A stretch of 64,000 nt of DNA from Vulcanimicrobiota bacterium (GTDB lineage Bacteria > Vulcanimicrobiota > Vulcanimicrobiia > Eremiobacterales > Eremiobacteraceae): positions 62,001-126,000 of the forward strand of contig JABCYQ010000002.1 in the NCBI GenBank assembly GCA_013290125.1, in the 5' to 3' direction. Positions 5,099 to 9,349 of the stretch are shown piece by piece (position 1 is the stretch's first letter; each line of letters opens with the position of its first letter). The translations under genes were made by a program, and so were the position numbers. The notes under the pieces are model-generated. The model was not told the DNA's origin. It made no database searches and worked only from the letters and a program-made list of their open reading frames with translations.

Positions 5099-6435
5099 CA
5101 GATCGCGCCGAGCATGCGCCCGGCATCGAGCGTGCCGGAGGGATCGAACGAAGTCTTAAGCCGGCGGAAGAGCGCGTACGGCGCATAACTGCGCGGCGGC
5201 ATCGCGATTTCCGTTCGGCCGGGCGGAGCCGACGTGCAGATCGCGCTGCCTGCGGCATCGCTGACGGCGCGCCAGAGAGCTGGTGCCTCGACCGCGGCGT
5301 GGGCAGGCGAGTGTCCGAAGACCACGCCCAACGTGGGGTGCGCGCTGATCTCGAGCATCGGCCATGATGTCGCCGCTGCAGCGAGGACCGACGGAACATC
5401 TGTGGGCAGGCAGGCGATGCGATAGGCGCACCACTCGACCGCCGGATACATGCGTCCGCCCGCGAGTTCGGCGATGTCTTTCCATGCGCGCTCCATGCCG
5501 CCGCGGTCGAGGACATCGACGGCCGTGCATCCGCGGTCGGCGCATATCTTTCGAACCGCCTCGATAGCACGAGCCACGGCTCGGCGAAGTCCGCCGAAGC
5601 GATAGACGGCGAGCCACTCATCCGTTCGCGTCAGCGCCGTCAATGCCGCGATGCGCTCGGCTGAGCGCGAGCAGTGCAGCGTGACCGCGTATGGGAATAT
5701 CGGAGCGGCTGCGACGTCGAGCGCCGCTGCGCAGGCGCTCCGCGCGTCGTTGAATCGAACGGCAAGAAGCCGTTCGTCGGGTGGCATCGGCGCGAGTTTA
5801 AGGACTGCCTCTCCAATGAATCCAAGCGTGCCGCGCGATCCGATGAAGAGCTTGTGCGAGTCAAAGCCCGCAACGCTCTTGACGACGTGCGATCCGGCGA
5901 ACGCGCGCGATCCATCCGACAACGCCACGCGCATCCCGAGCACATTGTCACGCAGCCCTCCGAATCGCGCGGCGAGCGCGCCGTTCGCTCCCGCGGCAAG
6001 CGCGCCTCCGACCGTCGCATCGTCCGCAAAAGGCACGTCGCAGGGGAAGAATCGCTCCTTCGCGGCAAGCGCAGCGCGCAGATCGGAGATCAGAACGCTC
6101 CCGGCGGCGACCGCGGTAAGATCGTCGGCGCGAACGTCGATCGATTTCGCTACCGACGAGACGTCGACCACGACGTCGAGCGCAGCCGGTGCGGGAGGCT
6201 GCGCGGATTTTGTGCCCTGACCGCGGATGACGACTTGCGCGCCTTCGAGCGCGCAAGCCTGGAGCGCGTCGGCGGTTTGCTCGAACGTCTTCGGGGAAGC
6301 GACCACAGTCGGAACGCGGCCAGCTATCGCAAATGCGGCGCAATCGTCTGGGTGGACCGTGAGCCGATCTTTCACGGCTTCGCGCAGCGACGAATCGAAC
6401 GGGACCGGACCGATGCCCTTCGGACGGCGCGTCAA
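5098..6435 (-). CDS. glcE: Glycolate oxidase FAD-binding subunit
   Basis: GlcE is the second flavin-binding subunit of glycolate dehydrogenase. The protein has an N-terminal FAD_binding_4 domain (PxTVVASPKTFEQTADAL, then a GGALAAGANG glycine stretch and SHVVKSVAGFD) and a C-terminal region of about 200 residues. I place the start at TTG 6435: this TTG overlaps the TGA stop of glcD as TTGA, and the frame upstream is just shadow of glcD. That gives 445 residues, longer than enterobacterial GlcE (about 350). No ATG or GTG lies near the natural N-terminus, so the exact start remains inferred. It is the middle gene of glcD-glcE-glcF. Confidence 0.88.
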   Translation of the reverse strand: MTRRPKGIGPVPFDSSLREAVKDRLTVHPDDCAAFAIAGRVPTVVASPKTFEQTADALQACALEGAQVVIRGQGTKSAQPPAPAALDVVVDVSSVAKSIDVRADDLTAVAAGSVLISDLRAALAAKERFFPCDVPFADDATVGGALAAGANGALAARFGGLRDNVLGMRVALSDGSRAFAGSHVVKSVAGFDSHKLFIGSRGTLGFIGEAVLKLAPMPPDERLLAVRFNDARSACAAALDVAAAPIFPYAVTLHCSRSAERIAALTALTRTDEWLAVYRFGGLRRAVARAIEAVRKICADRGCTAVDVLDRGGMERAWKDIAELAGGRMYPAVEWCAYRIACLPTDVPSVLAAAATSWPMLEISAHPTLGVVFGHSPAHAAVEAPALWRAVSDAAGSAICTSAPPGRTEIAMPPRSYAPYALFRRLKTSFDPSGTLDAGRMLGAI

Positions 6436-7889
6436 AACGCCGCGCCCGCCGCGCGCGCGACGCGCGGATCGACTTCGCCCCGCTCGACGCGTCGCGCCGA
6501 TTCGCCGCAGCGACGCGAGGTCGGAAATATCTTGCCCGGGTTGCACGATCCGTCCGGATCGAACGTTGCGCGCACGCGCCGCATGAGCGCGAGATCGTCC
6601 GGACTGAATTGCAACGGCATACAGTCTCGCTTTTCAATACCGACGCCGTGCTCGCCCGTGATGCTGCCGCCGTTGCGTACGCAGGCCTCAAGTATTTCCG
6701 CGCCGGCCCGCAGCGCGCCGTCGAGTTCGCCGGGCACTCGATCGTCGAAAAGAATCAGCGGATGGAGATTGCCGTCGCCCGCATGGAAGACGTTCGCGAT
6801 GCGCAGACCTTCACGTGCGCCTGCGGCCTCGACGTCGCGGAGGACCTGGGGCAGGCGGCTTCTTGGGATCACCCCGTCTTGGACGTAGTAGTTGGCGCTC
6901 AAGCGCCCCATGGCGCCAAACGCGGCCTTGCGGCCTTTCCAGATGCGCGCGGCTTCGGCGGCATCGCGGGCGATCCGTACTTCGCGCGCGCCGTTGCGCT
7001 CGCAGACCGCGCGCACGGCCGCTGTGATCTCGTCGGCGACGTCGTCCGGTCCATCTGCTTCGACGATCAGAATGGCCGCAGCGTCGACCGGGAAACCGGC
7101 ATGCGCAAATTCTTCGATCGCGCCGGTCGCCGTCTTGTCCATCATCTCGAGCGCGGCGGGCACGATGCCGGACGAGATGATGTCGGACACGGCCTGAGAC
7201 GCTCCATCGATGTCGTCAAAGACGCACAGCATCGTCTTGGATCCGGCCGGGAGCGGGCACAGCCGAACGCAGATCTTGGTGGCTATACCGCACGTGCCTT
7301 CCGAACCGATGAACGCGCCCAAAAGATCATATCCATAGTTCTCGCGGGTCTTGCCTCCGAGCCAGACGATGTCGCCCTCGGCCGTGACCAGCTCGACGCC
7401 CAAGACATGGTTCGCCGTCACGCCGTAGGCGAGACAGTGGAGTCCGCCAGAATTCTCGGCGACGTTGCCGCCGATCGTGCACGCGGCCATGCTTGACGGA
7501 TCGGGAACATAGCGCAGGCCACGGCCGGCGACGGCTGCACACAGGCCTGAATTCACGACGCCCGGCTCTACGACGGCGAACAGATTTCGGTCGTCGATTT
7601 CGAGAATGCGATTCAAGTGCACCGTGGCGATCACGACGCCGCCGAGTTCGGCGATCGCGCCACCCGAAAGACCGGTGCCGGCTCCGCGTGCGACAAAGGG
7701 GACCTTCGCTTCGCGGCAAGCCGCGACGATCGCCGCGGTCTGTTGCGCGTCTTGCGGAAGGACCACCATTTCGGGGAGCGCGCGCTCGATCGACGCATCG
7801 TAGCCGTACGAGCGAAGATCGCCCGGCTTCCAAAGCGCGTTTCGTTCGCCGACGATGGCGGTCAAGCGTTCGCGCAGCCTTACATCCAT
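6432..7889 (-). CDS. glcD: Glycolate oxidase catalytic flavoprotein subunit
   Basis: GlcD oxidises glycolate (or D-lactate) to the 2-oxo acid using FAD. The 485-residue protein starts MDVRLRERL at ATG 7889. The longer open frame upstream is discarded because it has no family similarity and would reach into the divergent gene. The FAD_binding_4 domain carries ARGAGTGLSGGAI (about residues 75-87), and the C-terminal FAD-oxidase domain carries FHAGDGNLHP and SITGEHGVGIEKRD, both hallmarks of the GlcD/D-lactate dehydrogenase family. It is the first gene of the operon, with a 66-bp divergent region towards the 7956 gene that must hold its promoter. GlcDEF often salvages 2-phosphoglycolate-derived glycolate. 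Confidence 0.94.
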   Translation of the reverse strand: MDVRLRERLTAIVGERNALWKPGDLRSYGYDASIERALPEMVVLPQDAQQTAAIVAACREAKVPFVARGAGTGLSGGAIAELGGVVIATVHLNRILEIDDRNLFAVVEPGVVNSGLCAAVAGRGLRYVPDPSSMAACTIGGNVAENSGGLHCLAYGVTANHVLGVELVTAEGDIVWLGGKTRENYGYDLLGAFIGSEGTCGIATKICVRLCPLPAGSKTMLCVFDDIDGASQAVSDIISSGIVPAALEMMDKTATGAIEEFAHAGFPVDAAAILIVEADGPDDVADEITAAVRAVCERNGAREVRIARDAAEAARIWKGRKAAFGAMGRLSANYYVQDGVIPRSRLPQVLRDVEAAGAREGLRIANVFHAGDGNLHPLILFDDRVPGELDGALRAGAEILEACVRNGGSITGEHGVGIEKRDCMPLQFSPDDLALMRRVRATFDPDGSCNPGKIFPTSRRCGESARRVERGEVDPRVARAAGAAF

Positions 7890-7955
7890 ACGCTTCTTCC
7901 GGTTCGCTTCCGGCACAAGGGCATCCCGGTGTGGAGGCGAACACAAGCGGCCGTC

Positions 7956-8282
7956 ATGGAGATCGCTCTTCGCGAAGTGCGCTATTCGCCCACCAAAGAT
8001 GTCTACAACCCTGGCGACGTGCTCACCGTCGCATTGTTCTTCGCCAAGGCTTGGACGGGCGAGGTCGAGGTCGGCCTTGCGCCCGATGGCGCCGTGAGCG
8101 GTTCGTATCCCACGACGGTGTTCGCTCGAAGCGGCGGCGCTCTCTACGAGGGTCAAGTCCACGTGAGGCGCGAGCATATCGGCACGTGCCGAATGCTGGC
8201 GACGTTCACCGGCGTGGACGGCACGGCCACGGTCGTGCCCGCCGTCGGCACGCCATTTGCGGTGCGCCCAATCGTCCCCTGA
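7956..8282 (+). CDS. Uncharacterised small protein, possibly beta-sandwich
   Basis: I do not recognise this 108-residue protein. It is rich in beta-prone segments (DVLTVALFFAKAW, TCRMLATFTGVDGTATVV) with a pattern like a small immunoglobulin or CopC-like sandwich. It has no signal peptide and no membrane helix. The ATG at 7956 is chosen over a GTG further upstream at about 7930 because the upstream part overlaps glcD on the other strand; a GGAGG lies about 20 bases before the ATG, too far for a good ribosome site, so the GTG start cannot be excluded. The gene ends 19 bp before the selenocysteine peroxiredoxin and probably shares its transcript. Confidence 0.6.
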   Translation: MEIALREVRYSPTKDVYNPGDVLTVALFFAKAWTGEVEVGLAPDGAVSGSYPTTVFARSGGALYEGQVHVRREHIGTCRMLATFTGVDGTATVVPAVGTPFAVRPIVP

Positions 8283-8301
8283 TAGCCTGATGAGGTCGCA
8301 T

Positions 8302-8751
8302 ATGCCAATTTCTGTCGGTGCCGTGATACCGAGCATCCGTTGTGAAACGCAGGACGGTCAGCTTGATCTCGATGTATATCGAGCGTCGAAAAACCTCGTC
8401 ATCTGGGCCTATCCTAAGGATGACACCGCGGGCTGAACGTTAGAAGCGAAGGACTTCAGTCGGCGGTCCGCCGACTTCGCGGCTGCCGGCGCCGTCACGG
8501 CCGGAATCTCCACAGATGATGCGGCTTCGCACCGCAAGTTCGCAACTCGTCACTCGCTCGAGGTGCCCCTGATCGCCGATCCAGGCGGCGCGATCTGCGC
8601 GCAGTTTGGCATACCGGTCTCTGCCAAAGGAGGATCCGCCGCGCGAACGACTATCGTCGTGGACAAGCTTGGCATCGTCCGGCGCGTCTACGAAAATGTG
8701 ATGCCGCTCGGCCACGCCGACCAAGTGTTGTCGTTCGTTAAGGGGCTCTGA
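8302..8751 (+). CDS. Peroxiredoxin (BCP/PrxQ type) with selenocysteine at the peroxidatic site (TGA read-through)
   Basis: A single frame from ATG 8302 to TGA 8749-8751 encodes 149 residues of the AhpC/TSA peroxiredoxin family, interrupted only by TGA at 8434-8436. This codon is residue 45 and falls exactly where BCP-type peroxiredoxins have the peroxidatic cysteine: YPKDDTAG-U-TLEAKDF against the family YPKDDTPG-C-TxEA. The rest of the fold continues in frame without damage (GISTDD, IADPGGAICAQFGIP, RTTIVVDKLGIVRRVYENV). A SECIS-like hairpin follows the codon. The product should reduce hydrogen or organic peroxides. The position of the usual resolving cysteine (U+5) is lysine 50; Cys99 is an alternative. 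A TGAGGT ribosome site lies about 7 bases before the ATG. An ordinary ORF finder splits this gene and reports only its tail. A nonsense mutation is the alternative, but its exact position argues against it. Confidence 0.87.
8446..8480 (+). promoter_or_regulatory. Bacterial SECIS-like hairpin
   Basis: Just after the in-frame TGA the RNA can form an eight-pair stem, AGTCGGCG (8458-8465) with CGCCGACT (8469-8476), closing a three-base loop GTC at 8466-8468. An outer GCGAA/TTCGC stem (8446-8450 with 8476-8480) extends it, using T8476 as an alternative pair, with a 5' bulge. The loop begins with G and lies 29 bases after the TGA. As I remember published bacterial SECIS rules, these ask for a G in the first two loop bases and a spacing of about 16-37 bases, and both fit. 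The hairpin is inside the coding frame, as in other bacteria, and would recruit SelB. Confidence 0.75.
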
Positions 8752-8875: not shown

Positions 8876-9349
8876 ATGGCCATCAAGAGACGCGCCAAGA
8901 AATCGGCTTCGGCCAAGAAGGGCGCAAAGCGCGCCGCATCGCGAAAGACCACTAGACGCGCGCCTGCTCGCGGCAAGGCGAAAAGCACAAAGCGAACGGT
9001 TAGGAAAGCGGCCGGGCGGAAGCGTTCCACAGCGCGTAAGGCGCCGGCCACGAAAAAGGCTGCTGTGAAGAAAGCAGCGCCGAAAAAGGCTGCCGTCAAA
9101 AAGGCCGCGGCGCCGCACAAAGGCGGCGGCGAAAAAGCGCCCGCCGCGCCAAAACCAGTCACACCGAAGCCGGGCGCAAAGCCGCGCGGCGTCGGAGCGA
9201 CGCCCACGCCGAAACCGCTCTTCGATGAGATCGACGTCACGATTGAAGCGGATGAGTTCGAGGACGAAGACGAGTTCGAGGACGGGTACGACGAGGAAGA
9301 AGAGGAAGAGGAAGAAACACATTCCGAGGAATCGGAGAACGGATTCTGA
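8876..9349 (+). CDS. Histone H1-like lysine-rich protein with acidic tail
   Basis: The 157-residue protein is strongly polarised. Residues 1-85 are made of Lys, Arg and Ala repeats (KKAAVKKAAPKKAAVKKAAA), like the tail of eukaryotic H1 and bacterial HU-H1-like proteins. Residues 90-118 are a Pro-rich linker, and residues 119-157 are almost wholly Asp and Glu. The basic half should bind DNA or RNA; the acidic tail may mask it or bind basic partners. A CCGGAGG ribosome site sits 9 bases before ATG 8876. A strong hairpin followed by T's after the gene ends its transcript. Some genes of this look are intrinsically disordered chaperone-like proteins, so the exact role is uncertain. Confidence 0.75.
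   Translation: MAIKRRAKKSASAKKGAKRAASRKTTRRAPARGKAKSTKRTVRKAAGRKRSTARKAPATKKAAVKKAAPKKAAVKKAAAPHKGGGEKAPAAPKPVTPKPGAKPRGVGATPTPKPLFDEIDVTIEADEFEDEDEFEDGYDEEEEEEEETHSEESENGF

Follow-up and report, generated by a model that had tools for sequence, protein, structure and literature searches.

The locus at 8302–8751 raises the question of whether an in-frame TGA codon can specify selenocysteine (Sec) at the active site of a peroxiredoxin in a bacterium of this kind. The window, i.e. the whole stretch of 64,000 nt that was analysed, comes from a 2.9-Mb assembly of 55 contigs which is 95% complete (G000). On its plus strand, an ATG at 8302 opens a frame of 149 amino acids which ends with a stop TGA at 8749–8751 and contains a second TGA, at 8434–8436, as codon 45. 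A first, sequence-only reading had taken this frame for a peroxiredoxin, with the internal TGA at the catalytic Cys position of BCP-type enzymes, and this was borne out, coordinates included. With Cys put in for the TGA, the translated frame is assigned to Pfam AhpC-TSA (PF00578, E = 9e-26, residues 5–128) and also to Redoxin. Its nearest solved structures are the BCP/PrxQ proteins 5enu (E = 4e-20) and 3drn (E = 9e-18), and in the alignment to 5enu (YPKDDTAG-U-T versus YPKDNTPG-C-T) the TGA lies opposite the peroxidatic Cys. Sec peroxiredoxins, of which the same reading knew from some bacteria, are indeed an established prokaryotic selenoprotein family (COG1225 Bcp, PF00578) with the motif TxxU or PxxxTxxU (PMC9312934, PMC13188914). 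The peroxiredoxin at 8302–8751 shares with them the fold family, the position of Sec and the motif, since both the AhpC-TSA domain and a PxxxTxxU sequence (PKDDTAGU) are present. On the comparative evidence, we consider it close to certain that 8302–8751 is a functional selenoprotein gene and that it would encode a monodomain PrxQ/BCP-type peroxiredoxin with selenocysteine 45 as peroxidatic residue.

A TGA is only one base away from TGC or TGT, and ordinary ORF callers place an end or a start of the gene at this codon (the splitting by conventional callers had been predicted). The TGA at 8434 could accordingly be a nonsense mutation in a pseudogene, or a Cys codon miscalled through a sequencing or assembly error. 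However, TGA occupies the same codon in 9 out of 9 close family orthologues (window genome included), which come from independent assemblies, and the frame 3' of it evolves as coding sequence. Over the 65 codons that follow the TGA, comparison with the orthologue in G001 gives 18 synonymous and 5 nonsynonymous differences, mostly at third positions, against 3 synonymous and 19–20 nonsynonymous differences when the same stretch is read in the two other frames. This third-position bias in divergence argues that translation through the TGA is maintained by selection. Since a dedicated hairpin and the Sec machinery also exist (see below) and the TGA is conserved across nine genomes, the pseudogene or base-error explanation was rejected, and we leave it hardly any probability.

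The comparison set consisted of 60 relatives, mostly MAG assemblies. Over 150 nt round the site, five genomes of the family are identical to publicly recorded orthologues, three of which belong to Candidatus Eremiobacter (RRmetagenome_bin22) or to Eremiobacterota/Eremiobacteria MAGs; judged by these relatives, the window comes from a MAG of the Eremiobacterota (Vulcanimicrobiota, WPS-2). At the 51 peroxiredoxin loci where the site was read, the codon was TGA in 37 and TGC in 14, and no other codon was found (part of these loci were picked for having TGA, so that 37/51 is not a frequency). The in-frame TGA is thus aligned with the conserved Cys of the homologues, as expected of a bacterial selenoprotein, and the Cys/Sec exchange that the sequence-only reading had proposed to look for in such an alignment is seen at precisely this codon. 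About six Sec/Cys changes are required by the protein tree. SelA and full SelB are both missing in 10 genomes, 9 of which have no TGA peroxiredoxin among the matches listed; in the tenth (G003, 370 contigs), TGA copies occur together with a SelD that itself contains TGA, but without SelA or full SelB, a discrepancy that suggests an assembly gap. TGA copies are absent from every genome that is devoid of SelA, SelB and SelD alike. Overall, the TGA copies track SelA/SelB (35/51 versus 1/10 genomes; Fisher P = 0.0009, with related genomes treated as independent).

A candidate bacterial SECIS hairpin, AGTCGGCG-GTC-CGCCGACT, is located at 8458–8476 on the plus strand. It has a stem of 8 bp and a GTC loop (−12.3 kcal/mol); its apical loop begins with G, 29 nt past the TGA, exactly as had been claimed from the sequence, and its features agree with the constraints of the bacterial SECIS model (PMC13188914). 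A hairpin 22–40 nt 3' of the TGA is kept in all nine family orthologues, the window genome being one of them. Among these, the stem displays a compensatory exchange, from G-C to A-U on both sides (alignment columns 44/54); pairing fails at one position in G002 (L017) and at the innermost position in G010, where G faces G. The hairpin codons vary little at their third positions (mean entropy 0.40 versus 1.28 elsewhere). After synonymous recoding of the window gene, only 3 out of 400 sequences fold as stably (0.7%, P = 0.007), which, together with the conservation in nine orthologues, indicates that the hairpin is more than a chance structure. The same procedure applied across the loci showed that the observed stability is reached by ≤5% of recodings in 22 of the 37 TGA loci versus 3 of the 14 TGC loci. 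When a 57-nt stretch is folded alone, the minimum-energy fold is not the 8458–8476 hairpin but an alternative pairing (z = −1.7); the comparative fold was preferred over this single-sequence fold. A scan of the hairpin region against Rfam (E ≤ 1) gave no matching model, and the hairpin therefore rests on comparison and not on a library model. A loose SECIS model run across the window returned 18 TGA-plus-hairpin candidates, including one behind the peroxiredoxin gene's own stop codon. Judged only by codon-position GC and by the residues round the TGA, the other candidates look like chance. With 18 candidates in one window, such a loose model is weak evidence by itself, and the case is carried by conservation. 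The amino acid segment FSxRSAD, encoded at 8458–8479, is invariant in the Sec orthologues and differs in the Cys homologues inspected. It seems, from these alignments, that the SECIS stem dictates residues of the protein itself.

The sequence-only reading had named selA, selB, selD and a tRNA-Sec gene as what should be searched for in the genome, and all four were found. SelA scores 455 bits; selB lies directly downstream of selA and encodes a full-length SelB (278 bits); the tRNA-Sec (selC), with a TCA anticodon (UCA), was detected with Rfam RF01852 (72 bits) and also called by ARAGORN; SelD (378 bits; G000:C26:38430-39359, L014) has an in-frame TGA of its own (CAGUAAK). The machinery expected alongside a bacterial selenoprotein is thus complete in the window genome. 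Its selenoproteome was sampled family by family. There are 14 AhpC-TSA matches, 2 of which contain TGA; a second TGA peroxiredoxin (G000:C20:2430-2861, L012/L071) has TSGUT at the site and, judging by its N-terminus, is probably exported. A formate-dehydrogenase-like (FdhA-like) molybdopterin oxidoreductase (L070, G000:C11:17500-21500) contains a TGA at 1875 within NRTUHAPSVAGL, a classical Sec motif, which makes it a further selenoprotein candidate. The search of the window genome for an AhpD-like selenoprotein yielded only a sub-threshold match, without TGA.

Given a hairpin that by itself is no proof of Sec, and termination that is expected under selenium limitation, one may ask whether the UGA is instead read by a near-cognate Trp or Cys tRNA, or whether a truncated peptide of 44 residues is the main product. 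This is very improbable in our estimation: wherever the site is not TGA it encodes Cys and nothing else, the genome has both tRNA-Sec and SelB, the same gene ends with TGA as an ordinary stop, and the 44-residue product would be deprived of the conserved C-terminal part, which is itself under coding constraint. Genome-wide reassignment of TGA was likewise rejected, on the grounds that this gene has TGA as its terminator and that homologues without Sec have Cys, and no other residue, at the site. Hence we infer that Sec is inserted at the UGA. SelD would make selenophosphate, SelA would convert Ser-tRNA-Sec into Sec-tRNA-Sec, and SelB, bound to the hairpin at 8458–8476, would bring Sec-tRNA-Sec to the UGA at 8434, a delivery step which is taken over from established bacterial Sec biology. 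At low selenium, translation would be expected to stop after 44 residues.

The second peroxiredoxin family, the probably exported one, possesses its own hairpin (stem CCGCCA/TGGCGG, short G-containing loop). Its copy in the congeneric genome G002 (L062) has TGC at the site, and the hairpin stretch there has decayed to TCAGCGAAATTAGCGG. In the tree, L062 groups with two congeneric species that have Sec, within a Sec clade. Since G002 retains SelB and also the TGA in its orthologue of the window gene, the change in L062 is a local Sec-to-Cys reversion that took place with the Sec machinery still in the genome. No Sec-to-Cys conversion is given for Prx in a survey from 2006 (PMC1794560). Other families of the class contain a third type of peroxiredoxin (PFAFTPxUT; L063 and L064, in G017 and G030), which likewise has TGA at this site.

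Which peroxiredoxin is it? The best NCBIfam matches are PrxQ NF053650 (84.8 bits, cut-off 260) and NF006960 (61.8 bits, cut-off 140); as both stay below their equivalog cut-offs, the protein is a relative of PrxQ/BCP and not an equivalog. It shares with these proteins (NF053650, NF006960; 5enu, 3drn) the monodomain organization and the YPKD-T-x-G-C/U motif, but differs from them in having Sec for the peroxidatic Cys and in lacking the resolving Cys at +5. PrxU of Eubacterium acidaminophilum, reportedly an experimentally studied Sec peroxiredoxin, has Sec at the peroxidatic site like the protein encoded at 8302–8751. The equivalog model NF040737, which we take to represent this PrxU (Sohling et al. 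2001), was nevertheless rejected: it is longer (233 positions), its cut-off is 270 bits whereas the window protein reaches 23.3, and this protein is nearer to PrxQ/BCP. A further consideration is that Sec may be inserted and yet serve mainly in a thiol-disulfide or sulfur-transfer oxidoreductase rather than in peroxide reduction. Such a role would suit a protein that lacks a resolving Cys, and peroxiredoxin-like thiol:disulfide oxidoreductases constitute a separate selenoprotein family within PF00578 (PMC13188914). However, that family is characterized by UxxC or UxxU, whereas the window protein has PxxxTxxU, a motif said to hydrogen-bond peroxide (PMC13188914), and its closest solved relatives are BCP peroxiredoxins. 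We regard the oxidoreductase role as unlikely; activity as a peroxidase is what the motif and the relatives point to.

The sequence-only reading was correct in placing Lys where the resolving Cys is usual, at +5 (Lys50 relative to Sec45), and in its numbering of Cys99; the remaining cysteines of the protein are at −31 and +54 (Cys99). It had left the catalytic cycle to either Cys99 or an external thiol, and only the second proposal stood up well. None of the 30 Sec homologues inspected has a Cys at +5, i.e. the 2-Cys arrangement of the E. coli BCP type was not found among them. Cys99 is present in 7 of the 9 orthologues (G004 and G011 are without any cysteine), and its equivalent exists in the Cys-type BCP 5enu as well. 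As it is missing in G004 and G011, Cys99 was rejected as an essential resolving residue. In the second peroxiredoxin family, 0 of 10 Sec members have a Cys in the domain; one has two, far beyond the domain. With no resolving Cys at +5, and with Cys99 dispensable among orthologues, the better-supported reading is a 1-Sec mechanism: hydroperoxide would be reduced via the Sec45 selenolate, and an external thiol, for example thioredoxin or a low-molecular-weight thiol, would probably resolve the selenenic acid.

The gene neighbourhood is also conserved. In nine genomes, the segment corresponding to 6432–8751 contains a flavin-linked oxidase gene on the minus strand which diverges from a gene for a 108-amino acid protein on the plus strand, followed, on the same strand, by the Sec peroxiredoxin gene. 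The oxidase (6432–7889, minus strand; start set from conservation) is FAD-linked and GlcD-like (FAD_binding_4 plus FAD-oxidase_C) and has the same position in 9/9 loci. The 108-amino acid protein (7956–8282, plus strand), to which no function was assigned, is encoded 19 nt upstream of the peroxiredoxin and is kept as its neighbour in 9/9 orthologous loci, with 37–91% identity by tblastn in L016–L023; a longer ORF containing it (7617–8282) has no Pfam match. A link between oxidase and peroxidase is plausible. ARAGORN also calls a tRNA-Val (GAC) of 87 nt at 6380–6466, which overlaps the 3' end of the oxidase gene and is doubtful by its length and this overlap. Immediately 3' of the peroxiredoxin, 8876–9349 encodes a histone-H1-like sequence with a Lys/Ala/Pro-rich N-terminal half and a Glu/Asp-rich tail (no Pfam match).

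Sec usage is associated with anaerobes. The window genome contains a strong match to COX1 (heme-copper oxidase), which is consistent with oxygen respiration by the host, a soil bacterium. The selenoprotein-rich organisms of the 2006 survey, many of them with peroxiredoxin, were mostly anaerobes (PMC1794560); in contrast to that picture, the host genome encodes a heme-copper oxidase, and a related peroxiredoxin has reverted from Sec to Cys. No report joining Eremiobacterota with selenoproteins or selenocysteine was found in the open-licence literature, in agreement with the sequence-only reading, which knew of none described for such organisms, and within that literature Sec use in Eremiobacterota appears to be unreported. 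The kind of enzyme is already known; what makes this member interesting is its clade-wide use in apparently aerobic Eremiobacterota, together with the Sec-to-Cys reversion. Taken jointly, the observations somewhat favour the following reading. The Eremiobacterota family would be a Sec-using, apparently aerobic lineage, and at least two of its peroxiredoxin lineages, one cytosolic and one probably exported, would long have been 1-Sec peroxidases; SECIS hairpins would have frozen part of a protein helix (FSxRSAD); Sec-to-Cys reversion accompanied by hairpin decay would be traceable between congeneric species; and the peroxiredoxin would belong to a conserved cluster with the divergent flavin-dependent oxidase and the 108-amino acid protein. 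The locus flags a class of genes that ordinary annotation breaks at TGA, and the peroxiredoxins of these genomes provide a natural series for the study of Sec gain and loss, from Sec with a hairpin to Cys without one and to genomes without the machinery. Genes, RNA element and machinery together extend Sec use to a little-studied bacterial group that apparently respires oxygen.
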